DNA from: Enorma burkinafasonensis
Lineage (GTDB): Bacteria > Actinomycetota > Coriobacteriia > Coriobacteriales > Coriobacteriaceae
DNA: 64,000 nt
Assembly (NCBI RefSeq): GCF_902150035.1
Contig: NZ_LR597503.1
Coordinates: 124,001-188,000 of the forward strand
Direction of reading: 5' to 3'
Part shown: in pieces, positions 5,156 to 32,451 of the stretch
How the letters are laid out: each line of letters opens with the position of its first letter
Position numbering within the stretch: the first letter of the stretch is position 1
Notes under the pieces: generated by a model
Database searches by the model: none
What the model saw: only the letters and a program-made list of their open reading frames with translations
Told to the model about the DNA's origin: nothing
Translations under genes and position numbers: made by a program

Positions 5156-5232
5156 GCGGCGTTACCTCAGCTGGATAGAGGGTCTGACTACGAATCAGAA
5201 CGTCATAGGTTCGAATCCTATACGCCGCACCA
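5156..5232 (+). tRNA. tRNA-Arg (anticodon ACG)
   Basis: A full cloverleaf: 7-bp acceptor stem (GCGGCGT with ACGCCGC), anticodon stem TCTGA/TCAGA around loop CTACGAA with anticodon ACG, T-arm GGTTCGAATCC, and an encoded CCA end. The A34 would be modified to inosine by TadA. Confidence 0.96.
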
Positions 5233-5244
5233 GCCGATGGTTAG

Positions 5245-5270
5245 AGGGCACCCGAAAGGGTGCCCTTTTC
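5245..5270 (+). terminator. terminator of tRNA-Arg
   Basis: A 9-bp stem (AGGGCACCC / GGGTGCCCT) with a GAAA tetraloop is followed by TTTTCGTTTT. Confidence 0.9.
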
Positions 5271-5438
5271 GTTTTCACAGCCCCGTGCGCAACGGCGTGC
5301 GCCCACAGACGCGCGGTCCGTGCCGGCGCGGAACCCCCTTTGGCGGCGGATCGCGCACCGACTCCCCTGGATATGCATTCAAGCTGGTCGTTCATGCAGA
5401 ATTGTCGGCTAGCGGTGGGTAGGCGACGGCGAATGGCA

Positions 5439-5467
5439 TTGTTTACTAATCGCGATTATTCTAAAAT
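5439..5467 (+). promoter_or_regulatory. promoter of the glycine reductase operon
   Basis: TTGTTT (5439-5444), a 17-base spacer and TAAAAT (5462-5467) lie in a locally AT-rich patch about 80 bases before grdE. I saw no glycine riboswitch-like structure in the 280 bases between the tRNA-Arg terminator and grdE. Confidence 0.6.
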
Positions 5468-5548
5468 TTCCGGTATGAAGGCGTAGTGTGTCGATACGCC
5501 CCGAAGGAAAGTTGGAAGTCGAGGATTCGCAAGAAAGGAGTGCCTATC

Positions 5549-6877
5549 GTGAAACTGGAGATTGGGAACATCCACGTCGAGGACGTTCGGTTCGGCGATG
5601 CCGACTCGTTTGAGAACGGCGTGCTCACCATCGACAAGGATGCCGCCATCGCATACCTCAAGGAGTGCGACGAGCATCTGACCGACGTGGACCTCGTCAT
5701 CGCCCATCCCGGCGATGACACGCGCATCGTGCCCGTGGTCGAGACCATCGAGCCGCGCGTGCGCATGGACGGCCGCTGCCTGTTCCCCGGCGTCACCGAC
5801 GACGTGGTGCCGGCGGGCGACGGCGAGCTCAAGGCCCTCAAGGGCTGCTGTGTGACCGTGGTGGCCAAGGAGTACGGCTCGTTCGGTGACGGCGTCATCG
5901 ACATGGGCGGGGAGGGCGCCAAGCACACCTACTGGTCGAAGCTCATCAACATCTGCCTCGTTGCCGACACCGACGAGGAGTTCGAGCGCCATGAGCAGCA
6001 GAAGTGCAACCACGCCCTGCGCTGGGGTGGCCACCGCCTCGCGGAGTACCTGGGCCGTATCGCCCGCGACGTCGAGGTCGACGAGACCGAGACCTACGTG
6101 GTCGATCCGGTGCTCAAGCGCGACCCGGCCCGCAAGGACCTGCCGAACGTGGCGCTCGTCCTGCAGCCGCAGTCGCAGATGGAGGCCCTGGGCTACAACG
6201 ACCTGTGGTACGGCTGGGACATGAACAAGTACCTGCCGACCTTCGTGAGCCCGACCGAGATCCTGGACGGCGCCCTCATCTCGGGCTCGTTCATGCCCTC
6301 GTCCTCCAAGTGGTCCACCTACGAGATGCAGAACTTCCCCACCATCAAGGAGCTCTTCGCCGAGGACGGGAAGTCCATCAACTTCGTGGGCGTGATCCTC
6401 TCCATGCTGAACGTCGCGCTCGACCAGAAGGAGCGCGCGGCCGTCATGGTGCGCAACATGGCCTTGAACCTCGGTATCGACTACGCGCTCGTGACCGAGG
6501 AGGGCTACGGCAACCCCGATACCGACTACGTGCGCTGCCAGGTGATCCTCGAGGACGCCGGCATCCCCGTCGTGGGCATCTCGAACGAGTGCACCGGCCG
6601 TGACGGCCGCTCGCAGCCGCTCGTGACCCTCGACGAGAAGATGACCGCGCTCGTCTCGACGGGCAACGTCTCCGAGCTGTCCGAGCTCCCCGCGTGCGCG
6701 ACGGTGATCGGCAGCCTGGAGGCCATGAACCGCGACGGCATGTCCGGTTCGTGGGGTTATGATGAGGTGCTCGGCAAGTCCGCTCGCGACGACGGCTCCA
6801 TCATCATGGAAGGCAACAATTGGTTCTGCGGGGACCATATCTCCGGTTTCTCCGTCAAGACCATGGTCGAAGTCTAG
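5549..6877 (+). CDS. grdE: glycine/sarcosine/betaine reductase component B, GrdE-type subunit
   Basis: The 442-residue product belongs to the GrdE/GrdG/GrdI family, which pairs with selenoprotein B and in characterised enzymes is cleaved to form a pyruvoyl cofactor that binds the substrate amine. It starts with GTG (KLEIGNIHVEDVRFG, the family N-terminus), with AAAGGAG at 5534-5540; the longer in-frame ATG at 5486 lacks a ribosome site. It is followed directly by grdB. Oddly, there is no cysteine between residues 153 and 330, and the expected cleavage region reads SGSFMPSSSK (about 245-254). This matters because the known proproteins make pyruvoyl from a mid-protein cysteine. The substrate is probably glycine from context, but this is not proven. 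Confidence 0.88.
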   Translation: MKLEIGNIHVEDVRFGDADSFENGVLTIDKDAAIAYLKECDEHLTDVDLVIAHPGDDTRIVPVVETIEPRVRMDGRCLFPGVTDDVVPAGDGELKALKGCCVTVVAKEYGSFGDGVIDMGGEGAKHTYWSKLINICLVADTDEEFERHEQQKCNHALRWGGHRLAEYLGRIARDVEVDETETYVVDPVLKRDPARKDLPNVALVLQPQSQMEALGYNDLWYGWDMNKYLPTFVSPTEILDGALISGSFMPSSSKWSTYEMQNFPTIKELFAEDGKSINFVGVILSMLNVALDQKERAAVMVRNMALNLGIDYALVTEEGYGNPDTDYVRCQVILEDAGIPVVGISNECTGRDGRSQPLVTLDEKMTALVSTGNVSELSELPACATVIGSLEAMNRDGMSGSWGYDEVLGKSARDDGSIIMEGNNWFCGDHISGFSVKTMVEV

Positions 6878-6891
6878 GGAGGTGCGCATAG

Positions 6892-8211
6892 GTGAAGAAG
6901 GTAATCTGCTACCTCAACCAGTTCTTCGGTGGTGTCGGTGGCGAGGATAAGGCCGATATCGAGCCCTACATCGTCGAAGGTGTCGTGGGCCCGACCATGG
7001 CCATCAACGGCGCCCTCAAGGACGCCGAGGTCACCCACACGATCGTGTGCGGCGACAACTTCATGGGCTCCAACACCGAGGAGGCCGTCTCGCGCATCAT
7101 GGAGATGCTCGAGGGCAAGGAGTTCGACTTCTTCGTCGCCGGCCCGGCGTTCCGCGCCGGCCGCTACGGCGTGGCCTGCGGCACGATCTGCAAGGCCGTC
7201 CAGGAGAAGCTCGGCGTCCCCGCGGTCACCTCGATGAACGAGGAGAACCCCGGCGTCGAGATGTTCAAGGGCGACGTCGTGATCTTCAAGGGCGGCGACG
7301 GCGCCGCGAAGATGCGCAAGGACGTGCCCAAGATGATCGGCTACGTCAACAAGGTGCTCGCTGGCGAGCAGACGCTCGGCGCCGACGCCGAGGGCTACTT
7401 CGCGCGCGGCATCCGCCACGAGATCTACCTCGAGGACAAGCGCGAGAACACGGCCGCCTACCGCGGCGTGCAGATGCTGCTCAAGAAGATCCGCGGCGAG
7501 GAGTACCAGACCGAGCTCGTGATCCCCAAGAAGGAGACCGTGCCGGTCGCCGACGCCATCAAGGACCTCGGCAGCTCCGTCATCGCGCTCGTGACCACCG
7601 GCGGTATCGTGCCCATCGCGAACCCCGACCGTATCCAGTCCGCGTCCGCGACGCGCTGGGGCCGTTACGACATCTCCGATATGGACCGCCTCGATGCGGG
7701 CAAGTTCAAGACGATCCACGCCGGCTTCGACCCGGCGGCGGCCAACGCCGACCCCAACGTGATCGTCCCGGTCGACGCCATGCGCGCCTACGAGCGTGAG
7801 GGCAAGATCGGCCGCCTGCATCCGTACTTCTACTCCACCGTGGGTACCGGTACCACCGAGGCCGAGGCCTCGCGCATGGCCATCGAGATGATCCCGTACC
7901 TCAAGGAGGACGGTGTGAACGGCGTTATCGTCGGCAGCACTTGAGGCACCTGCACTCGTTGCGGTGCAACGATGGTCAAGGAGTTCGAGAAGGCCGGGTT
8001 CCCCGTGGTGCACATGTGCAACCTGGTCCCGGTTTCCACGACGGTCGGCGCGAACAGGATCGTGCCCACCATCTCGATCCCCTATCCTCTGGGAGACCCC
8101 AACACGTCGCCCGAGGAGCAGTGGAAGCTGCGCTATCATCGCGTTGGCGTCGCGCTCGACGCGCTCGCCACGCCGGTGACCGAGCAGACGGTCTTCAAGG
8201 TCAAGTACTAA
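6892..8211 (+). CDS. grdB: glycine reductase selenoprotein B (GrdB), selenocysteine at codon 351
   Basis: Component B activates the amine substrate and passes its carboxymethyl group to the selenium of GrdA. The 439-residue reading frame crosses an in-frame TGA at 7942-7944 in the family context UGTCTRCG (U-x-x-C-x-x-C), and continues with clearly conserved sequence (VPTISIPYPLGDP) to TAA at 8211. It starts with GTG, and GGGAGGTG overlaps the grdE stop. The N-terminus (YLNQFFGGVGGEDKAD) is canonical GrdB. A hairpin just after the TGA could act as SECIS. Without Sec insertion the product would end at 350 residues. Confidence 0.96.
7942..7970 (+). promoter_or_regulatory. UGA(Sec) codon and SECIS-like hairpin in grdB
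   Basis: The TGA is followed by a stem TGCAC (7951-7955) / GTGCA (7964-7968) with an 8-base loop. It lies within the distance at which bacterial SelB recognises its hairpin. Pairing is by inspection only. Confidence 0.6.
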
Positions 8212-8232
8212 AGCAGGGAGGTACGCTCGTCC

Positions 8233-9180
8233 ATGGCAGAGGTGTACGACGTTATCATCTTGGGCGCCGGCCCCGCGGGGCTCGCCGCCGGTCTCTATGC
8301 CGGCCGCAGCAGGCTCAAGACGCTCATCATCGAGAAGGCCCAGGACGGTGGCCAGATTGCCATCACCGATGAGATCGAGAACTACCCCGGGCAGATGCTC
8401 GAGGGCGAATCCGGCCCCTCGCTCATCGCGCGCATGACCGCGCAGGCCGAGAAGTTCGGCTGCGAGCGCGTGAGCGACACCATCACCGGGCTCGAGCTCG
8501 AGGGCCCGGTCAAGAAGCTCATCGGCTACGGTGGGGAGTACGAGGCGAAAAGCGTCATCCTGGCGCTCGGCGCCCACCCGCGCAAGATCGGGTGCAAGAA
8601 CGAGGCCGAGTTCACCGGACGCGGCATCTCGTTCTGCGCGACCTGCGACGCGGCGTTCTTCGAGGACTTCGAGGTCTACGTCGTGGGCGGTGGCGACGCC
8701 GCCGTCGAGGAGGCGATGTATCTCACCAAGTTCGCGCGCAAGGTGACGATCATCCATCGTCGCGACGAGCTGCGCGCCGCCAAGTCCATCCAGGAGAAGG
8801 CCTTCGCCAACCCCAAGATCCACTTCATGTGGGACACCGTGGTGGACGAGGTCGACGGTGACGGCATCCTCTCCAAGATGGTCGTCAAGAACACCAAGAC
8901 CGGCGAGCTCACCACCATCGAGGCCGACCCCGAGGACGGCATGTTCGGCCTCTTCGGCTTCATCGGGCTTCTGCCCTCGACCTCGCTCATCGAGGGTATC
9001 ATCGACACGGACGAGCGCGGCTACGCGCTCACCGATGCCGACATGCATACCAATATCGAGGGTGTCTACGCCGCTGGCGACATGCGCCAGAAGAGCCTGC
9101 GCCAGGTGGTGACCGCCGTCGCCGACGGCGCCATCGCCGCCATGCAGGCCGAGCACTACATCTCCAACCTGTCCGAGTAA
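8233..9180 (+). CDS. trxB: thioredoxin reductase
   Basis: A 315-residue flavoprotein that passes NAD(P)H electrons to thioredoxin, here to reduce the selenoprotein A/C cycle of glycine reductase. It has the FAD motif GAGPAGLAAG (11-20), the redox pair CATC (Cys135, Cys138) and the nucleotide motif GGGDAAVEE (152-160). The typical NADPH-specific arginines appear as HRRDELRA. It starts at ATG with GGGAGG 10 bases upstream, 21 bases after grdB, so it is in the same operon. In clostridial grd operons trxB and trxA are likewise part of the cluster. Confidence 0.96.
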   Translation: MAEVYDVIILGAGPAGLAAGLYAGRSRLKTLIIEKAQDGGQIAITDEIENYPGQMLEGESGPSLIARMTAQAEKFGCERVSDTITGLELEGPVKKLIGYGGEYEAKSVILALGAHPRKIGCKNEAEFTGRGISFCATCDAAFFEDFEVYVVGGGDAAVEEAMYLTKFARKVTIIHRRDELRAAKSIQEKAFANPKIHFMWDTVVDEVDGDGILSKMVVKNTKTGELTTIEADPEDGMFGLFGFIGLLPSTSLIEGIIDTDERGYALTDADMHTNIEGVYAAGDMRQKSLRQVVTAVADGAIAAMQAEHYISNLSE

Positions 9181-9195
9181 AAAGGAGGAACGGAT

Positions 9196-9513
9196 ATGCT
9201 CGAGGTTGATAAGAACACGTTCGAGGACGAGGTGCTGAAGGCCGACGGCTACGTGCTCGTCGACTACTTCGGTGACGGCTGCGTGCCCTGCGCCGCGCTC
9301 CACCCGCACATCGAGGCCTTCGCCGAGAAGTACGGCGAGAGCATCAAGTTCTGCGAGCTCAACACCACCAAGGCTCGTCGCCTGGCCATCGCCCAGAAGA
9401 TCCTGGGCCTGCCGGTGATCGCCATCTACAAGGACGGCGAGAAGGTCGACGAGTGCGTCAAGGATGACGCCACGCCCGAGAACGTCGAGGCGATGATTCA
9501 GAAGTACGTCTAG
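9196..9513 (+). CDS. trxA: thioredoxin of the glycine reductase type (GCVPC active site)
   Basis: A 105-residue thioredoxin fold protein with the atypical active site GCVPC (Cys29, Cys32) instead of WCGPC, and the cis-proline at GLPVIAIY. A changed active site of this kind is known from thioredoxins of amino-acid-reducing clostridia such as Eubacterium acidaminophilum. It would re-reduce GrdA after each turnover. It lies 15 bases after trxB with AAAGGAGG. A strong intercistronic hairpin follows before grdA. Confidence 0.95.
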
Positions 9514-9527
9514 GTGCACCGGGACGC

Positions 9528-9553
9528 CCGCCGGGCCGTCTTCGGCCCGGCGG
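9528..9553 (+). other. intercistronic hairpin between trxA and grdA
   Basis: A perfect 11-bp GC stem (CCGCCGGGCCG / CGGCCCGGCGG) with a TCTT loop and no U-run behind it. It is more likely an RNA stability or processing element than a full terminator, and may separate grdA expression from the upstream genes. Confidence 0.6.
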
Positions 9554-9606
9554 ACACGCGGCCACGTAGGCTGTAACTACGAGATATGGAAGGGAGTGGA
9601 GAGAAC

Positions 9607-10077
9607 ATGAGCATCTTAGCTGGGAAAAAGTGCGTCGTCATCGGCGACCGCGACGGCATCCCCGGCGAGGCCATCTCGGCCTGTGCCGCTAGCGCGGGTG
9701 CCGAAGTGATTTTCTCTTCGACAGAGTGCTTCGTTTGAACCGCTGCAGGTGCAATGGACCTGGAGAATCAGAAGCGTGTTAAGGAGTTCACCGAGCAGTA
9801 TGGCCCCGAGAACGTCGTCGTTCTCCTTGGCGCCGCTGACGGTGAGGCTGCCGGCCTCGCTGCTGAGACGGTCACCAACGGTGACCCGACCTATGCCGGT
9901 CCGTTGACTGGAGTCCAGTTGGGACTCGCGGTTTATCACGTTGTCGAGCCTGAGGTCAAGGCGGAGTTCGATGAAGCCGTCTACGACGAGCAGGTAAGCA
10001 TGATGGAGATGGTCCTCGACGTCGATGACATCATCGGCGAGATGACCACCATTCGCGACCAGTATTGCAAGTTCTAG
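9607..10077 (+). CDS. grdA: glycine reductase selenoprotein A (GrdA), selenocysteine at codon 44
   Basis: GrdA is the small carrier that accepts the carboxymethyl group on selenium and hands it to protein C. The 156-residue frame contains TGA at 9736-9738, giving Cys41-Phe-Val-Sec44, the CxxU motif of the family at its usual position. It continues [17 protein letters not shown], also typical. The ATG is preceded by GGAAGGGAGTGGAGA. Reading TGA as stop would leave a 43-residue fragment. Hairpins on both sides (9528-9553 and 10110-10135) isolate this cistron, which fits a need for a different amount of the carrier. Confidence 0.97.
9736..9762 (+). promoter_or_regulatory. UGA(Sec) codon and SECIS-like hairpin in grdA
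   Basis: Behind the TGA, CAGGT (9746-9750) pairs with ACCTG (9758-9762) around the loop GCAATGG. The stem begins 7 bases after the UGA, close to the grdB arrangement. Confidence 0.6.
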
Positions 10078-10109
10078 AAGAGTAGTACCGGGCGCTTGAC
10101 GTGCTTCGG

Positions 10110-10135
10110 GGGGCGGTGGCTGGGGCCGCCGCCCC
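10110..10135 (+). other. intercistronic hairpin between grdA and grdC
   Basis: A 10-bp stem (GGGGCGGTGG / CCGCCGCCCC, one G-U pair) with a 6-base loop lies in the 110-base gap. It has no U-run, so partial termination or mRNA stabilisation is more likely than a true end of the operon. Confidence 0.55.
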
Positions 10136-10187
10136 TTCCCGGATTGAGCGACTGCTCTTCGCCAGACATCGAGCTAGGAGTGGAAAC

Positions 10188-11729
10188 GTGAACAGCGTTA
10201 TCAAGGGGGTCGGGTACGTGCTCGCCCATACTCCCGATATGGTGATCGAGAACGGCACGACCCAGATGACCGAGCGGATCGTGAATCCGGAGAGCGAGTA
10301 CCTGAAGGAGCTGCCGAGCCATCTGCGCAGCTTCGACGAGGCGCTCGCGTACTGGCCCAACCAGGTCTACATCGGCAACAAGACCCCGCTTGAGCTCGCC
10401 GAGGTGGAGCAGCCCTGGTACGACAAGTCCTGCGACGAGACCTCGCGCTACGGCGCCTACGGCCAGATGATGCCCGAGGACGAGTTCATCCTGCTCATGC
10501 AGGCGTGCGACGTCTTCGACCTCGTCAAGCTCGAGCGCGGCTTCGTCGCGGCCCACAAGGACGCGCTCGCCGCCAACCCCGTGATCGACGAGAGCATCAT
10601 GGCCCGCATCGTCGAGGGCGTCGACGCCTCCGAGATCGAGGCGCTCATCGCCGACGACCATGCCGAGCGCATCTGCTTCGAGGGCGCGGTCGTGGGCTGC
10701 GTCAAGCCCGCGCACGACATCGACGTGAACCTCTCCGCCGAGATTATGCTCGAGAACATCGTCGAGAAGGCGTCCTCGGTCCTCTCCCTGCTCTCGCTCG
10801 TCCACAACACGGGCGTCGCCAAGGACGAGATCGAGTACGTCATCGATTGCTCCGAGGAGGCCTGCGGCGACATGAACCAGCGCGGCGGCGGCAACTTCGC
10901 CAAGGCCGCGGCCGAGATCGCCGGCCTCACCGCCGCGACCGGCTCCGACGTCCGCGGCTTCTGCGCCGCGCCGACCCATGCGCTCGTCGAGGCGGCCGCG
11001 CTCGTCGCCTCCGGCGCCTACAAGACCGTCGCCGTGACGGCCGGCGGTTGTACCGCCAAGCTCGGCATGAACGGCAAGGACCACGTCAAGAAGGGCCTGC
11101 CCATCCTCGAGGACGTGGTCGCCGGCCTCGCCGTGCTCGTCACCGTGAACGACGGCGTGAACCCCGAGATCGACCTCTCGGTGCTCGGCCGCCACACCGT
11201 GGGCACCGGCTCCGCCCCGCAGGTGGTCATCGGCTCGCTCGTCTACGACCCGCTCGAGCGCGCCGGCCTCAAGGTCACCGACGTGGACTACTTCTCGCCC
11301 GAGCTGCAGAACCCCGACATCACCAAGTTCGCCGGCGCCGGCGACGTGCCCGCGTCCAACTACAAGATGATCGGCGCCCTCGGCGTGAAGCGCGGTGAGC
11401 TCGAGCGCACCCAGCTGAACGACTTCGTGAGCCAGCACGGTTTCGTGGGCTGGGCGCCCACGCAGGGACACATCCCCTCGGGCGTGCCCTCGATCGGCTA
11501 CGCGCGCGACGCGATGCTCGCGGGCGACATGGAGCGCGTGATGATCATCGGCAAGGGGTCGCTGTTCCTGGGCCGCATGACCAACCTCTTCGACGGCGTG
11601 TCCGTGCTCATCAAGCGCAACGAGGGTGCCGCCGACGAGGCCGCCGGCGTCTCCGAGACCGAGGTCAAATCCATGATCGCCAAGGCCATGCGCGAGTTCG
11701 CCGCGACCCTGATCGAGCAGGCTGAGTAG
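10188..11729 (+). CDS. grdC: glycine reductase component C subunit beta (GrdC)
   Basis: A 513-residue GrdC, the usual length. Together with GrdD it converts the carboxymethyl-selenoether on GrdA to acetyl-phosphate, the energy-yielding step. The protein is related to thiolase/FabH-fold enzymes, and the central APTHALVEAAALVASG and AGGCTAKLG segments are typical of the family. The GTG start is chosen for CTAGGAG 8-9 bases upstream; the longer open frame runs into the grdA-grdC hairpin. It lies 9 bases before grdD, in the same transcript. Confidence 0.95.
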   Translation: MNSVIKGVGYVLAHTPDMVIENGTTQMTERIVNPESEYLKELPSHLRSFDEALAYWPNQVYIGNKTPLELAEVEQPWYDKSCDETSRYGAYGQMMPEDEFILLMQACDVFDLVKLERGFVAAHKDALAANPVIDESIMARIVEGVDASEIEALIADDHAERICFEGAVVGCVKPAHDIDVNLSAEIMLENIVEKASSVLSLLSLVHNTGVAKDEIEYVIDCSEEACGDMNQRGGGNFAKAAAEIAGLTAATGSDVRGFCAAPTHALVEAAALVASGAYKTVAVTAGGCTAKLGMNGKDHVKKGLPILEDVVAGLAVLVTVNDGVNPEIDLSVLGRHTVGTGSAPQVVIGSLVYDPLERAGLKVTDVDYFSPELQNPDITKFAGAGDVPASNYKMIGALGVKRGELERTQLNDFVSQHGFVGWAPTQGHIPSGVPSIGYARDAMLAGDMERVMIIGKGSLFLGRMTNLFDGVSVLIKRNEGAADEAAGVSETEVKSMIAKAMREFAATLIEQAE

Positions 11730-11738
11730 GAGCGTCGT

Positions 11739-12890
11739 ATGGGAAGCTTAGAGAAGACCATCGCCTCCGCGTTCCTGGAGATGGCGGAGGGTCTGGAGAG
11801 CGGGCGCTACGGTGCCCGTCCCCGCATCGCGCTCACCGGCATGGGCAGCGAGCACGGCGAGGAGAACGCCATGGCGGCGGCCCGCGCCGCGGCCAAGCAG
11901 GGCATCGACGTGCACTACATCGGCTCGCTCGCCGATGACGCGGTGACCTGCGTGCCGGTCGCCGACGACGAGGCCGGCCATGCCAAGATGGATGAGCTGC
12001 TCGCCTCCGGCGAGGTCGACGGCGCCGTGACCATGCACTACCCGTTCCCCATCGGCGTGAGCACCGTGGGCCGCGTGGTGACCCCGGCGACGGGCAAGGA
12101 GATGCTCATCGCCAACACCACGGGAACCTCGTCGGGCGACCGCATCGAGGGCATGGTGCTCAACGCCATCGCGGGCATCATCGTGGCCCGTGCGCTCGGC
12201 AACGAGCACCCCACCGTGGGCATCCTGAACGTCGACGGCGCCCGCCAGTGCGAGATCGCGCTCAAGAAGCTCGCCGAGGGCGGCTACCCCATCACGTTCG
12301 CCGAGTCCTCCCGCGCCGACGGCGGCGCCGTCATGCGCGGCAACGACGTGCTGCGCGGCACGCCGGACATTCTCGTGACCGACTCCCTCACGGGCAACGT
12401 GCTCACGAAGATGATCTCGGCCTTCACGACGGGCGGCAGCTTCGAGGCCACGGGCTTCGGCTACGGCCCGGGCATCGGCCGGGGCTACGACAGGCTCGTG
12501 CTCATCGTGTCGCGCGCCTCGGGTGCGCCCGTGGTGGAGCACGCCCTCGAGTTCGCGGGCGAGCTCGTGCGCGGCGGCGTCTTCAAGATCGCCGAGGAGG
12601 AGTACGCGCGCGCCGACGCCGCGGGCCTCGAGGCCATCCTCGCCGAGCGCCGCGCCTCCGAGAAGAGGCCCGCCGAGGAGGAGGCCGTATCTGCCCCGCC
12701 GGCGGAGCCGGTCACGGCGAGCATCCCCGGCATCGAGGTCATGGACCTCGAGGATGCCGTGCAGGTGCTCTGGCGCGCCGGCATCTACGCCGAGTCGGGC
12801 ATGGGCTGCACCGGCCCGCTCGTCATGATGAGCGAGGCCAACCACGATAAGGCCGTGGAGCTCCTTACCCAGGCCGGGTATATCGGCTAG
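11739..12890 (+). CDS. grdD: glycine reductase component C subunit alpha (GrdD)
   Basis: A 383-residue GrdD, related to the phosphate acyltransferase PlsX. It ends with the family's conserved cysteine segment (GMGCTGPLVMMSEANHDKA, Cys357), where an acetyl-thioester is thought to form before phosphorolysis to acetyl-phosphate. A Pro/Ala/Glu-rich linker at about 305-330 separates this C-terminal segment from the main domain. Its product would be converted to ATP by acetate kinase, which is not in this window. A strong hairpin at 12905-12931 lies behind the stop. Confidence 0.95.
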   Translation: MGSLEKTIASAFLEMAEGLESGRYGARPRIALTGMGSEHGEENAMAAARAAAKQGIDVHYIGSLADDAVTCVPVADDEAGHAKMDELLASGEVDGAVTMHYPFPIGVSTVGRVVTPATGKEMLIANTTGTSSGDRIEGMVLNAIAGIIVARALGNEHPTVGILNVDGARQCEIALKKLAEGGYPITFAESSRADGGAVMRGNDVLRGTPDILVTDSLTGNVLTKMISAFTTGGSFEATGFGYGPGIGRGYDRLVLIVSRASGAPVVEHALEFAGELVRGGVFKIAEEEYARADAAGLEAILAERRASEKRPAEEEAVSAPPAEPVTASIPGIEVMDLEDAVQVLWRAGIYAESGMGCTGPLVMMSEANHDKAVELLTQAGYIG

Positions 12891-12904
12891 TATGCAATGA
12901 GCGA

Positions 12905-12931
12905 CTGCCGGGGGCGCTGTGCCCCCGGCAG
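12905..12931 (+). terminator. strong hairpin after grdD (partial terminator or processing site)
   Basis: A perfect 11-bp stem (CTGCCGGGGGC / GCCCCCGGCAG) with a 5-base loop. A second stem follows (12937-12944 with 12960-12967). Neither has a U-run. They mark the boundary between the grd structural genes and the selenium machinery. Confidence 0.5.
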
Positions 12932-12998
12932 GGCCAGCGGGGCGCCGGGCTGCACCTGCCGCCCCGCGGGCGTTTGCCGGACCGCGAGAGGAGGGGCC

Positions 12999-14042
12999 GT
13001 GACCGCCAAGAAGATCAAGCTCACGTCGATGACGAAAGCCGCCGGTTGAGCCGCCAAGATGGCGCCCGGCGCCCTCGCTCAGGTTCTGCGCGAGATCCCA
13101 ACCATGAACGACCCCAACGTGCTCGTGGGGCTCGACACCTCGGATGACGCCTGCGTCTACCGCGTGAGCGATGACGTGGCGCTCATCGAGACCGTCGACT
13201 TCTTCCCGCCGATGGTGGACGACCCCTTCGTCTTCGGGCAGATCGCGGCCGCGAACGCGCTCTCCGACGTGTACGCCATGGGCGGCACGCCGGTGCTCGC
13301 GATGAACATCCTGTGCTTCCCCAACTGCCTCGGCGTCGAGGTCGCGGGCCAGATCATCGCCGGCGGTGCCGACAAGGCGCGCGAGGCCGGCGTGACCGTC
13401 GCGGGCGGGCACACCCTCACGGATGACGAGCCCAAGTACGGCATGTGCGTCACGGGCATGGCGCACCCGGACCGCATCCTCAAGAACTGCTCCGCCCGTC
13501 CGGGCGATGCCTTGGTGCTCACCAAGGAGCTGGGCACGGGCCTTATCATGACGGCGCTCAAGGGCGAGCTCGTCGCAGGGGAGACGGTCGAGCGGGCGGT
13601 CGAGAGCATGCGCACGCTCAACCGCTACGCCGCCGAGTGCGCGCGCGGCCTTGCCGTCCACGCCTGCACCGACGTGACGGGGTTCGGCCTTGCCGGCCAC
13701 CTCTGCGAGATGGCGGAGGGGAGCGGGCTTACCGCGACGGTGAGCGCGGGCGCGTTCCGCCTTCTGCCCGAGGCGCTCGAGATGGCGCGCATGGGCGTCA
13801 TCCCCGCCGGCGCCTACCGCAACGCCGACCATTTCGGCGCGGGCGTCATCTTCGATGAGGACGTGGAAAACGGCATGGAGGACGTGCTCTTCGACCCGCA
13901 GACCTCGGGCGGCCTGCTCTTCGCGCTGCCGCCCGCAGACGCCGAGACGCTGCTCGCGCGCCTGCGCGATGCCGGGGTGCCCGCCGCGCTCGTGGGGTCG
14001 CTCTCGACGTACGAGGGGTATCACGTCCACGTGCGCGCGTGA
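12999..14042 (+). CDS. selD: selenide, water dikinase (SelD), itself a selenoprotein (Sec17)
   Basis: SelD makes selenophosphate from selenide and ATP, the selenium donor for SelA. The 347-residue frame starts at GTG 12999 with GAGAGGAGGGG upstream and contains TGA at codon 17 (13047-13049). The context AAG-Sec-AAK places Sec where E. coli has Cys17 and Lys at 20, both catalytic. The downstream sequence is canonical (DDACVYRV; QTSGGLLFALP). The downstream ATG at 13059 would make an enzyme without the catalytic residue and has no ribosome site. Sec in SelD makes its own synthesis dependent on selenium. Confidence 0.96.
13047..13065 (+). promoter_or_regulatory. UGA(Sec) codon and short hairpin in selD
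   Basis: CGCC (13052-13055) pairs with GGCG (13061-13064) around AAGAT directly after the TGA. This is shorter than the grdA and grdB stems, so its SECIS role is less certain. Confidence 0.4.
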
Positions 14043-14226
14043 TGCGCGAGGTTTGGCGATAGGGTACCGACTATCGATGGCCCGATTCGCGTTTGCGCAG
14101 GATTCGGAAAACAAAAAATCAAGTAGTAGGTACGTTGTCCCGGTGAAGCCGGCGAGTCCAACGGGTCTGTCCGCGCGTTGGCCCCGTGCTTGCGCGAGGC
14201 AGCGTCGCCGCTTGGGGCAAGGACCG

Positions 14227-14255
14227 TTGACACCATCGCCCATCGCGATTATCGT
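14227..14255 (+). promoter_or_regulatory. promoter of the selC-selA-selB unit
   Basis: TTGACA (14227-14232), exactly 17 bases, then TATCGT (14250-14255). Predicted initiation is some 20 bases before the mature tRNA-Sec. The 185 bases between selD and this promoter show no gene. Confidence 0.7.
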
Positions 14256-14284
14256 TTAACCGAAGCCGCGAGCGCAGGCGACAG

Positions 14285-14379
14285 GGGAGCATTTAGGTAA
14301 CTGGTGTGCCTCCCGGTCTTCAAAACCGGTGTGAGTAGAAACCTGCTCGGGTGGGTTCGATTCCCACATGCTCCCGCCA
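14285..14379 (+). tRNA. selC: tRNA-Sec (anticodon TCA)
   Basis: A long (95-base) tRNA with the 8-bp acceptor stem characteristic of tRNA-Sec (GGGAGCAT / ATGCTCCC), a long variable arm, T-arm GGGTTCGATTCCC, discriminator G and encoded CCA. The anticodon is TCA in loop TCTTCAAAA. It decodes UGA in grdA, grdB and selD. It sits 90 bases upstream of selA, its own modifying enzyme. Confidence 0.97.
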
Positions 14380-14469
14380 ACCGCCGCCTGGACGGCCGGC
14401 TCATAGATAGCGCTGCCGGAGGCGGATTCCGGCTCCTTGCATGGACCGTGCGAGCGGATGGGAGACCGT

Positions 14470-15891
14470 ATGGACGTGGGTCAGGTATTGCGTCGGATCC
14501 CCAAGATGGATGCGCTGCTGGCGCTCCCGGAGATCTCCCAGGCATGTGAGCGCTTCTCATATCCCGAGGTGAAACATCTGATCGGCCAAGAGCTCGAGGG
14601 CATCCGCAGGCAGGTGCTCGCGGGCGCGCTCGACGAGGTTCCCGCCCAGGAGGACATCGCGGCGCGCGTGCTCGCCGGGCTCGAGGCGTCGGGAGCCTTC
14701 AGCCTGCGCCCGGTCATCAACGCGACGGGCGTGGTGCTGCACACCAACCTGGGGCGCGCGCCGTTCGGCGAGCGCATGGCGCGCCACGTGGCGCAGGTCG
14801 CCGCGGGCTACAGCAACCTGGAGTACAACCTCGCCCGCGGCAAGCGCGGCAGCCGCTACGTGCATGTGGAGCACCTGCTCTGCGAGCTCACGGGCGCCGA
14901 GGCCGCCATGGTGGTCAACAACAACGCCGCGGCGGTGTTCCTCATGCTCAACACGCTCGCCGCGGGCGAGCAGGTCGCGGTGTCGCGCGGTGAGCTCGTG
15001 GAGATCGGCGGGTCGTTCCGCGTTCCCGAGATCATGGCGGCGAGCGGGGCCGAGCTCGTCGAGGTGGGCACCACCAACAAGACGCACGCCTACGACTACG
15101 AGCGCGCGGTCGAGGCCGGCGCGCAGGCACTGCTCAAGGTCCACACGAGCAACTTCGTCATGCGCGGGTTCACCGAGGCCGTGGGCATCGCCGAGCTCGC
15201 GCGCATCGCGCACCCCGCCGGCGCCCGCGTGCTCTACGACGTGGGGTCGGCGCTCATGTTCCCCGGGGAGGTGCTCGGCCTCACCGACGTCGAGGTGGTG
15301 CGCCGCGCGATCGCCGACGGCGCGGACGTGGTCACGTTCTCCGGCGACAAGCTGCTGGGGTCGGCGCAGGCCGGCGTCATCGTGGGCTCGCAGGACGCCA
15401 TCCAGCGCATGAAGCGCAACCAGGTGACCCGCATGCTGCGCATCGACAAGCTCTCGCTCGCGGCACTCGAGCAGGCGCTCATCTGGCAGCTCGACCCCGC
15501 GTGCGCGCGCGAGCAGGTGCCGGCGCTGCGCATGATCGCTGAGGACGTGGAGACGCTCGAGGCCCGCGCCGGCGAGCTCGCCGGGGCACTCGGCGGTATC
15601 GCCGGGGCGAGGCTCGAGGTCGTGCCGGTCGTCGACGAGGTGGGCGGCGGCTCGCTGCCTGGCGTGGAGCTCGAGGGGCGCGCCGTCGCGCTCGAGCTTG
15701 CGGGCCATACCGCGGAGGAGCTGGAGCGCGCGCTCAGGTGCGCGGCCCACGCGATCGTCGCGCGCGTCTCGGAGGGCCGCGTGCTCTTCTCCGTGCGCAC
15801 GCTCATGGCGGGCGACATCCAGCGCATCGCCGACACGGTCGGCGAGATCGCGCGCGGCGCGGCCGCGGCCGGGGCGGGGGAGGCGCGATGA
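14470..15891 (+). CDS. selA: L-seryl-tRNA(Sec) selenium transferase
   Basis: SelA is a PLP enzyme that converts Ser-tRNA(Sec) to Sec-tRNA(Sec) with selenophosphate. The 473-residue protein has the family core (NATGVVLHTNLGRAP, near 85-99) and the PLP lysine in FSGDKLLGS at Lys294, matching Lys295 of E. coli. I chose the ATG at 14470, with GGGAGA just upstream; an upstream in-frame ATG at 14437 has no ribosome site. The stop overlaps the selB start by 4 bases, so the two are translationally coupled. Confidence 0.96.
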   Translation: MDVGQVLRRIPKMDALLALPEISQACERFSYPEVKHLIGQELEGIRRQVLAGALDEVPAQEDIAARVLAGLEASGAFSLRPVINATGVVLHTNLGRAPFGERMARHVAQVAAGYSNLEYNLARGKRGSRYVHVEHLLCELTGAEAAMVVNNNAAAVFLMLNTLAAGEQVAVSRGELVEIGGSFRVPEIMAASGAELVEVGTTNKTHAYDYERAVEAGAQALLKVHTSNFVMRGFTEAVGIAELARIAHPAGARVLYDVGSALMFPGEVLGLTDVEVVRRAIADGADVVTFSGDKLLGSAQAGVIVGSQDAIQRMKRNQVTRMLRIDKLSLAALEQALIWQLDPACAREQVPALRMIAEDVETLEARAGELAGALGGIAGARLEVVPVVDEVGGGSLPGVELEGRAVALELAGHTAEELERALRCAAHAIVARVSEGRVLFSVRTLMAGDIQRIADTVGEIARGAAAAGAGEAR

Positions 15892-17792
15892 AGCACGTGA
15901 TCATCGGCACCGCGGGCCATGTCGACCACGGCAAGACCGAGCTCACACGGGCGCTCACGGGCACCAACACCGACCGGCTCGAGGAGGAGCGCCGCCGCGG
16001 CATCACGATCCAGATCGGCTTCGCGCGCCTCGAGCTCCCCGGCGGGCGCACGGCGAGCATCATCGACGTGCCCGGCCACGAGCGCCTGATCAAGAACATG
16101 CTCACCGGAGCCTCCGGTATCGACGTGGTCCTCTTCGTCGTGGCGGCGGACGAGGGCTTCATGCCGCAGTCCCAGGAGCACCTCGACATCTTGTCGCTTC
16201 TGGGCGTGCGCGACGGCATCATCGTCTTCACCAAGGCCGACCTCGTCGACGCCGACTGGCTCGAGATGGTCGAGGCCGACACGCGCGACCGCGTCGCGGG
16301 GACGTTCCTCGAGGATGCTCCCGCCATCGCGGTATCCTCGGTCACGGGGGAGGGCATCGACGAGCTCAAGGAGCTTATCGTGGGGCTCGTCGAGCATGCC
16401 GCGCCCAAGCGGCTCGACCTGCCGTTCCGCATGCCGGTCGACCGTTCGTTCACCATCAAGGGGTTCGGCACGGTCGTGACCGGTACCTGCACCGAGGGCA
16501 CGGTCCAGGTGGGAGAGACCGTCGAGGTGTACCCGGAGCGCACGAGCGCGCGCGTCCGCGAGCTGCAGAACCATGGCGTCTCGGAGAAGTCGTCCGAGGC
16601 GGGCATGCGCGTCGCGGCGAACCTGGCGGGCATCGAGCAGAAGCAGGTGGCCCTCGGCTGCACCCTGGCTGCGCCCGGCACGCTCGCGCTCACCGAGATG
16701 GCGAGTGCGGTGCTCACCCTGACCGCGAGCGCGCCGTTCAGTGTGCGCAACTCCTCGCGGGTCCACGTCTACGCCGGCACGCAGGAGACGGTCGCCCGCG
16801 TTCGCCTACTCGATTGCGACGAGCTGCTCCCCGATGAGAGCGCGCTCGCGCAGCTCTCGTTCGAGAAGCCGCTCGCCCTGCGCAACCTCGACCGCTTCAT
16901 CGTGCGCTTCCTCTCGCCGCTCGTGACGATCGGCGGAGGGCGCGTGCTCGACTGCCATGCGACGCGGCTGCGCCGACACGACGCGCAGGTGCAGGAGCGC
17001 CTGCGCCGCCTCGACGGCGCGCCCGAGGAGCGCGTGGCCCAGCTCGTGAGCGACGCGGGCACCGCGCCCTGCGACCCGGCGCGCCTCGCGCTCGATGCCG
17101 TGGTCGCTCCGGGCGAGCTCGACGCCGCGCTCGCCGCCCTCGTGGACGCGGGCGCGCTCGTGCGCATCGCCGGGATCCCGTTCACGACCGAGGCGCTCGG
17201 CGAGCTCGAGTCCCGCGCGGTCGCGGCCGCCGAGGCCTATCAGGCGGAGCACCCGCTCGAGGCGGGCCCGCGCGCGGCGGACGTTCGCCAGCAGCTCTGC
17301 GCCTCGGACCCGGCCGTCGCCGAGGGCCTGCTCGGAGCGATCGTCGAGCGCGGTGCGCTCGAGATGGCGGGCGACCGCGTGCACACGCCCGGCTTCGCGC
17401 CCAAGCTCACCGCCGAGCACGAGCGCCTGAAGCGCGAGATCTGCGCCTTCGTTGAGGGCCGGGGGTTCGAGGCGCCCACGATCGAGGAAGTCTCCGAGGC
17501 CGCCCCGGGCAACGCCAAGGCGTTCAAGCAGGTTGTCTCGCACCTGCGCGAGACGGGCGAGGTGGTGTTTCTCACCGCGCAGTCATGTGTCTCGCGCGAG
17601 GCGTACGACCGCGCGCTCGCGCTCTTCCTCGAGATGTTCGATGACGCCGACGCCGTCGCGCTCGCCGACTTCAGGACCCGCGCAGGTATCTCGCGCAAGT
17701 ACGCCCAGCAGCTCCTCGACGCGTTCGACGCGAAGGGAATCTCGAAGATGGTCGGCGACAAGAGGATCCTGCTCGCACCCCGCGAGCGGTGA
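15888..17792 (+). CDS. selB: selenocysteine-specific elongation factor
   Basis: The 634-residue SelB brings Sec-tRNA(Sec) to the ribosome at UGA codons and binds the SECIS hairpin. The GTPase has GHVDHGKT (10-17), DVPGHE and TKAD. Translation-factor beta-barrel domains follow to about 370, and the remaining C-terminal half has the winged-helix repeats that bind SECIS RNA. It is slightly longer than E. coli SelB (614). Its ATG overlaps the selA stop (ATGA). Confidence 0.96.
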   Translation: MKHVIIGTAGHVDHGKTELTRALTGTNTDRLEEERRRGITIQIGFARLELPGGRTASIIDVPGHERLIKNMLTGASGIDVVLFVVAADEGFMPQSQEHLDILSLLGVRDGIIVFTKADLVDADWLEMVEADTRDRVAGTFLEDAPAIAVSSVTGEGIDELKELIVGLVEHAAPKRLDLPFRMPVDRSFTIKGFGTVVTGTCTEGTVQVGETVEVYPERTSARVRELQNHGVSEKSSEAGMRVAANLAGIEQKQVALGCTLAAPGTLALTEMASAVLTLTASAPFSVRNSSRVHVYAGTQETVARVRLLDCDELLPDESALAQLSFEKPLALRNLDRFIVRFLSPLVTIGGGRVLDCHATRLRRHDAQVQERLRRLDGAPEERVAQLVSDAGTAPCDPARLALDAVVAPGELDAALAALVDAGALVRIAGIPFTTEALGELESRAVAAAEAYQAEHPLEAGPRAADVRQQLCASDPAVAEGLLGAIVERGALEMAGDRVHTPGFAPKLTAEHERLKREICAFVEGRGFEAPTIEEVSEAAPGNAKAFKQVVSHLRETGEVVFLTAQSCVSREAYDRALALFLEMFDDADAVALADFRTRAGISRKYAQQLLDAFDAKGISKMVGDKRILLAPRER

Positions 17793-30918: not shown

Positions 30919-32451
30919 ATGGCCTCGTTCGACACCCTTTCCGCCAAAGAGATCGCCCGGGGCGTCGCCGCCGGAACCTTCACGGCCGTGGAGGTCGCCC
31001 GCGCGGCACTTGACGCCATCGATGCGCGCGAACCGCATGTGCAGGCGTTCCTGCAGGTCACGCCCGAGCTTGCGCTCGAGCGCGCCCGGCGCATCGACGA
31101 CGCCCGCGCCGCGGGTGAGGAGCTGCCGCCGCTCGCGGGCGTGCCGGTCGCCATCAAGGACAACATGAACCTCGCGGGCACGCGCACCACCTGCGCGTCG
31201 CACATGCTCGAGACCTACGAGTCGCCCTATACCGCCACCTGCGTGAAGCGCATGCTCGCGGCGGGCTGCGTGCCGGTGGGCAAGGCCAACATGGACGAGT
31301 TCGCCTTCGGCTCGTCGACCGACACCTCGGCGTTCCACCCCACGAACAACCCGTGGGACCTCGAGCGCGTGCCCGGCGGGTCCTCGGGCGGGTCGGCGGC
31401 GGCGGTCGCGGCGGGCGAGGTTCCGCTCGCGCTCGGCTCCGACACCGGCGGCTCGATCCGCCAGCCCGCCGCGCTCTGCGGCGTCGTGGGCATGAAGCCC
31501 ACCTATGGCGCCGTCTCGCGCTACGGCGTGGTCGCCTTCGGCAGCTCGCTCGACCAGGTGGGGCCCTTCGGCCGTACGGTCGAGGACGTGGCGCTCGCCA
31601 TGGACGCGCTCGTCACCGGCGGGCGCGACCCCTTCGACTCGACCGCCCAGGACGTCCCGGCCACCTTCGCCGAGCATGTGGGTGCCGACATCGCGGGCAA
31701 GCGCGTGGGCATCATCCCCGCCTTCATGGGGGCCGAGGGCCTCACGGCCGAGATGCGCGCCGCTGTCGAGACGGCCGCCGCGGACCTCGAGCGCGCCGGC
31801 GCCGAGCTCGTCGAGGTCGACCTGCCGCACCTCGCCGCGGCGATCGCCGCCTACTACGTGATCGGCCCCGCCGAGGCGTTCTCCAACCTCGCGCGCTTCG
31901 ACGGCATCCGCTACGGCTACCAGGAGCCCGGTTGCGCGACCCTCGCCGCCCAGAGCGCGCTCTCGCGCGCGCACGGCTTCGGCCCGGAGGCCAAGCGCCG
32001 CCAGATGCTCGGCGCCTACCTGCTGTCCTCGGGCGTGTACGACAAGTACTACTACGCCGCGCAGAAGGCACGCACGCTCATCACCGATGACTACCGTCAC
32101 GCCTACGAGCAGGTGGACGTGATCCTCATGCCGGCGAGCCCGCATGCGGCGTTCAAGCACGGTGAGATCTCGGACCCCACGCAGATGTACCTCGCCGACC
32201 TCTACACCATCTCGATCAACATCGCCGGCAACGGCGGCATCACGGTGCCGCTCGGGCTGGGCGAGGCGTCCGGGCTGCCGGTCGCCGCCCAGCTCGTGGC
32301 GCCCGCGTTCGGCGACGAGCGCCTCATCGCGTTCGGGTCGGCGCTCGAGTGCGCCTACGCGGGCAAAGACGGCATCTGGGGCGCGGCGGCGCGCGGGCGC
32401 GCGGGGGCCCCGGTCGCTGCTGCCTTCGCCGGGAAGGGAGGTGAGCTCTAG
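30919..32451 (+). CDS. gatA: Asp-tRNA(Asn)/Glu-tRNA(Gln) amidotransferase subunit A
   Basis: A 510-residue amidase-signature enzyme that releases ammonia from glutamine for the amidotransferase. The Ser-cis-Ser-Lys triad is visible: Lys in VAIKDNMN (near 80), cis-Ser in GGSSGGSAAAVAAG (near 155) and nucleophile Ser in GSDTGGSIRQPAAL (near 178). It starts directly after the gatC stop and is followed directly by gatB, so translation is coupled throughout. Confidence 0.96.
   Translation: MASFDTLSAKEIARGVAAGTFTAVEVARAALDAIDAREPHVQAFLQVTPELALERARRIDDARAAGEELPPLAGVPVAIKDNMNLAGTRTTCASHMLETYESPYTATCVKRMLAAGCVPVGKANMDEFAFGSSTDTSAFHPTNNPWDLERVPGGSSGGSAAAVAAGEVPLALGSDTGGSIRQPAALCGVVGMKPTYGAVSRYGVVAFGSSLDQVGPFGRTVEDVALAMDALVTGGRDPFDSTAQDVPATFAEHVGADIAGKRVGIIPAFMGAEGLTAEMRAAVETAAADLERAGAELVEVDLPHLAAAIAAYYVIGPAEAFSNLARFDGIRYGYQEPGCATLAAQSALSRAHGFGPEAKRRQMLGAYLLSSGVYDKYYYAAQKARTLITDDYRHAYEQVDVILMPASPHAAFKHGEISDPTQMYLADLYTISINIAGNGGITVPLGLGEASGLPVAAQLVAPAFGDERLIAFGSALECAYAGKDGIWGAAARGRAGAPVAAAFAGKGGEL

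Follow-up and report, generated by a model that had tools for sequence, protein, structure and literature searches.

Probable GrdI rather than GrdE: a component B subunit without processing cysteines in Enorma burkinafasonensis

The window analysed here, a stretch of 64,000 nucleotides from Enorma burkinafasonensis (contig NZ_LR597503.1, positions 124,001 to 188,000), carries an operon that could be taken for a glycine reductase with an odd GrdE, but the best reading of which is betaine reductase; this amounts to a gene-name correction. The PF09338 protein encoded there is very probably GrdI, which in betaine reductases forms the alpha subunit of the betaine-specific component B, lacks the pyruvoyl-forming Cys and would not be cleaved at that site. 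Judging from the phylogeny, the protein is a member of a separate PF09338 branch and not a GrdE stripped of its Cys. The absence of the Cys is real, yet it is normal for this protein because a GrdI-type group without it is already known; as an established property of that subfamily, it makes the case essentially ordinary.

The protein and its former processing site

The protein of 442 residues, read from a GTG start, is a full member of PF09338 according to a profile search (residues 2-439), with the domain and the length of about 440 residues expected for GrdI. It contains ten Cys (positions 40, 77, 100, 101, 136, 153, 330, 348, 383 and 427), and the stretch between residues 153 and 330 is free of Cys, as the earlier note had observed. 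In the alignment, the segment DGALISGSFMPSSSKWSTY lies opposite DGAIVSGNCVSACDKNPTY of true GrdE, with S247 facing Asn241, F248 facing the pyruvoyl-forming Cys242, and S252 facing Cys246, the second conserved Cys of GrdE. Both positions of the processing pair are therefore occupied by other residues, and where GrdE has SGNC, the Cys of which gives the pyruvoyl, this protein has SGSF. In Clostridioides difficile GrdE, mass spectrometry of the peptide 242-266 identified an N-terminal pyruvoyl derived from Cys242 (PMC9908766).

The segment SGSFMPSSSK quoted in the earlier note is indeed encoded by codons 245-254, and SGNC, given there as the GrdE motif, is correct, being present in 36/36 sequences of the other main branch. 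The cleavage Cys maps to neither Cys153 nor Cys330 but opposite F248, which rules out a shift to either of these residues. A Cys found three residues further in many relatives (SGSFMPC) was rejected as a substitute, since GrdE has an Ala opposite it, it is not conserved, and the protein studied here has Ser instead. Mutational loss and sequencing error are likewise ruled out by identical residues fixed in 80 relatives.

Two branches of PF09338

When 84,980 species genomes were scanned with peptide patterns that exclude the SGSF/SGNC site, 546 relatives emerged among the pattern-matching stretches. The best 80 of these 546, from Bacillota, Actinomycetota, Fusobacteriota and Desulfuromonas, share 61-86% identity with the E. 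burkinafasonensis protein, and 80/80 harbour SGSF or GGSF at the site. Every PF09338 protein was also sought in 20 of the relatives' genomes, and the resulting alignment of 120 distinct sequences comprises 82 with [SG]GSF, 36 with SGNC, and two with neither. S247, F248 and W255 are identical in 82/82 members of the F branch, a conservation that, as judged from the alignment, is far beyond chance, and S252/S253 are identical in 98% of them.

A maximum-likelihood tree was built from 67 of the 120 sequences (29 F-type, 36 C-type and the two divergent ones). The F and C types part by a single change, with support of 97/99 for the F branch and 90/57 for the C branch, and the published grdI product of strain M8S5 belongs to the same branch as the E. 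burkinafasonensis protein. The two divergent sequences (L121:1625-3343 and L122:1358-2629) are about 28-32% identical to either type, have neither SGNC nor SGSF, and sit on very long branches that make their placement unsure. Of note, a C-type protein from Tissierella praeacuta (G071, L123:1795-3090), also on a long branch, reads SGNCVSAGSK, in which the first Cys is kept and Gly replaces the second.

The genome of E. burkinafasonensis contains two PF09338 genes according to the profile search. The second one (L001/L126) is a canonical grdE with SGNC, whose product is 39% identical to that of the gene described here, and it precedes a grdB of its own carrying the STUGTCTRCG motif. The label GrdE, and with it the notion of an anomalous GrdE, is thus not borne out: the trait is fixed throughout a subfamily, is described in the literature, and coexists with a canonical GrdE encoded elsewhere in the same genome.

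The operon and its genomic setting

The features of the grd/sel region are collected in Table 1. The selenoprotein partner GrdH is encoded directly after the grdI-type gene, and its in-frame TGA is followed by a SECIS_4 element. GrdH has its Sec at residue 351 of 439, while that of C. sticklandii has it at 352 of 440 (PMC3091704), and it shares 49% identity with the second GrdB of the same genome. The operon is complete and looks functional, as had been supposed, but this function would most likely concern betaine and not glycine. A second tRNA-Sec predicted by ARAGORN on the minus strand (31439-31531) is probably false, being antisense within an amidase gene and unsupported by Rfam.

Table 1. 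Features of the grd/sel region, with positions in the window
Feature	Position	Strand	Evidence and remarks
grdI-type gene (called GrdE in the earlier note), betaine-type component B alpha subunit without processing cysteines	5549..6877	+	PF09338, 543 bits; branch with published M8S5 grdI, support 97/99
Codons 245-254, SGSFMPSSSK opposite SGNCVSACDK of GrdE	6281..6310	+	Alignment; F248 codon at 6290-6292
grdH-type selenoprotein partner (called GrdB in the earlier note), 439 aa	6892..8211	+	STUGTCTRCG, Sec residue 351, TGA 7942-7944; 68% identical to the M8S5 GrdH-position protein
SECIS_4, directly after the grdH TGA	7945..7982	+	Rfam RF01990, 60.5 bits
trxB, thioredoxin reductase	8233..9180	+	Name inferred from ORF sequence; homologues in many grd loci
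trxA, thioredoxin	9196..9513	+	Name inferred from ORF sequence; homologues in many grd loci
grdA, shared selenoprotein A, start inferred	9607..10077	+	Translation across TGA; Sec residue 44, TGA 9736-9738; PF04723, 174 bits past the TGA
grdC, component C beta subunit, start inferred	10179..11729	+	PF19364, 271 bits; homologues in grd loci
grdD, component C alpha subunit	11739..12890	+	PF02504, 136 bits; homologues in grd loci
selD	13059..14042	+	PF00586/PF02769
tRNA-Sec	14285..14379	+	ARAGORN; RF01852, 75.6 bits
selA, start uncertain	14437..15891	+	Name inferred from ORF sequence; several grd loci have a gene of 33-40% identity nearby
selB, start inferred	15888..17792	+	TIGR00475, 346 bits, full length; sole one above cut-off in this genome

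With regard to the genomic setting (5156-17792), the grd/sel genes come directly after a tRNA-Arg gene, which is conserved in 4/4 congeners with 91-94% DNA identity by blastn, serS being near in three of the four. Beyond the tRNA-Arg, the compared congener stretches gave no blastn match to the window. Neither a PF09338 gene nor a SelB above cut-off was found in the four congeners, and among 67 genomes of the family only that of E. burkinafasonensis carries PF09338. The G+C content of the grd/sel stretch (0.675) equals that of its surroundings (0.676) to within a thousandth. The pattern fits either the acquisition, at a tRNA gene, of a self-contained, selenium-dependent reductase island or its repeated loss in other lineages.

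The link to betaine

Strain M8S5 has a first operon annotated as betaine reductase, with grdI and grdH, trxA, grdA, the transporter gene betL, grdC, grdD and trxB, and a second one with grdX and grdE/grdB (PMC10536192). In our analysis, the SGSF protein of M8S5 (locus L064) is encoded in the order grdI, grdH, trxA, grdA, BCCT transporter, grdC, grdD and trxB, and the SGNC protein of that strain is encoded elsewhere in its genome. Furthermore, a passage of PMC10838667 that cites Bednarski 2001 describes both GrdI of betaine reductase and FarE of fluoroacetate reductase as devoid of the two Cys and not as proproteins.

Among the best 80 relatives, GrdH is encoded nearby in 76 loci, and a transporter of the BCCT family (betaine/choline/carnitine, PF02028) is encoded no more than 8 kb from the gene in 65 of the 71 informative loci, that is, those in which a BCCT gene is present or the flank is long enough to judge. 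Such a transporter in or near the operon is usual, though not defining, for GrdI. In E. burkinafasonensis, no BCCT (PF02028), OpuAC (PF04069) or SNF (PF00209) transporter was found in the genome at the thresholds used, a point against the betaine reading. The assignment to betaine is the best reading of the sequence data, anchored on the annotation of M8S5, the transporter linkage and published statements.

Proposed mechanism and alternative explanations

In these reductases the substrate is bound by component B, a selenocysteine takes over its carboxymethyl group and hands it on to GrdA, and acetyl phosphate is released by component C. In E. burkinafasonensis, GrdI would pair with GrdH, the selenoprotein whose gene comes next in the operon, and the resulting complex would bind glycine betaine, transfer its carboxymethyl group to the selenocysteine, and release trimethylamine. 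This group would then proceed via GrdA to GrdC/GrdD, yielding acetyl phosphate, with electrons supplied by Trx. Betaine, a quaternary amine, has no N-H and is already positively charged, and a Schiff base between it and a pyruvoyl carbonyl is not possible. With such a substrate, neither Schiff base nor pyruvoyl would be needed, which presumably explains why the GrdI subfamily has no pyruvoyl-forming Cys and is not cleaved there. In the case of glycine and sarcosine, activation of the C-N bond proceeds through a Schiff base with a carbonyl of the protein (PMC10838667). The role of the pyruvoyl of GrdE is debated, one view being that it keeps GrdB active (PMC9908766).

The absence of BCCT, OpuAC and SNF transporters leads to consider that this component B, although of the same branch, acts in this lineage on a substrate other than betaine, for example a different methylated amine or a derivative of acetate that is not an amine. 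FarE, a Cys-free member taking fluoroacetate, offers a precedent, and the close relatives L009, L013, L017 and L019 also have no BCCT gene nearby. However, the protein shares 81-84% identity with relatives adjoined by a BCCT gene (L003, L004, L005, L007, L010 and L040), its score with the FarE model is far below cut-off (see below), and the transporter survey covered the BCCT, OpuAC and SNF families only. Taken together, we consider another substrate unlikely.

The earlier note had left the choice between a pyruvoyl derived from a serine and a variant working without cleavage or on another substrate. The latter option agrees with the known Cys-free GrdI subfamily, and the former gained no positive support. 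A GrdI that is cleaved nonetheless, at S247 or at S252/S253, by analogy with pyruvoyl decarboxylases, could invoke the near-complete conservation of these serines, but such conservation equally fits a substrate-binding loop. As betaine forms no Schiff base, and as the passage citing Bednarski 2001 does not treat GrdI and FarE as proproteins, this scenario appears very improbable. A degenerate, inactive GrdE would also lack the processing Cys, but here the reading frame, the SECIS element and the Sec partner are intact, the operon is full, and the same residues are fixed across several phyla and conserved in 80 relatives, which leaves this explanation next to no credit. GrdI of betaine reductase thus stays the preferred identity of the protein.

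The former pyruvoyl loop may set the choice of substrate. OpuAC-like betaine-binding proteins hold the quaternary ammonium in a prism of three tryptophans through cation-pi contacts (PMC2861598). Comparison of the 82 GrdI-type with the 36 GrdE-type sequences indicates that Y216, W223, F248 and W255 are fixed in the former, the GrdE equivalents being His, mostly Val, Cys and mostly Asn, respectively. Given this precedent and these fixed residues, we can propose, tentatively and with more doubt than confidence, that this loop acts as a switch of substrate specificity, in which the covalent cofactor formed from the GrdE Cys would be exchanged for a non-covalent pocket, F248 of GrdI building with W255, W223 and Y216 an aromatic box around the trimethylammonium group.

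With regard to structure, no solved structure related by sequence to the protein was found. The AlphaFold2 model has a mean pLDDT of 85.9 and a pTM of 0.90, with values of about 80 to 82 in the former pyruvoyl loop, and a Foldseek search with this model returned no credible match (best E 0.03).

Significance

On the betaine reductase reading, the operon may give rise to trimethylamine in an anaerobic host. In practical terms, SGNC versus SGSF provides a short sequence diagnostic for distinguishing the cysteine-type from the betaine-type subunits of component B.

Comparison with known systems

No NCBIfam model scores above its own cut-off with the protein, and FarE, GrdG and PrdA were all rejected as names on this basis. 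GrdG, the component B alpha subunit of sarcosine reductase (NF040793), gives the highest score, yet its 313 bits are far under the cut-off of 780. FarE of fluoroacetate reductase resembles the protein in that both processing Cys are likewise missing, according to the above-mentioned passage of PMC10838667, but differs in that its model (NF053623) attributes to the protein 153 bits against a cut-off of 675. GrdE, whether that of E. burkinafasonensis or that of C. difficile, belongs to the same Pfam family, is of similar length, and has the same kind of selenoprotein partner; however, identity is about 39%, and SGNC with the pyruvoyl-forming Cys242 (C. difficile, PMC9908766) contrasts with F248. 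The closest counterpart is GrdI of M8S5. A BCCT transporter gene is present in the M8S5 operon and absent from the operon and the genome of E. burkinafasonensis, but both proteins belong to the same branch, are about 63% identical, and carry SGSF, with grdH directly downstream and grdA, grdC, grdD, trxA and trxB in the same cluster.
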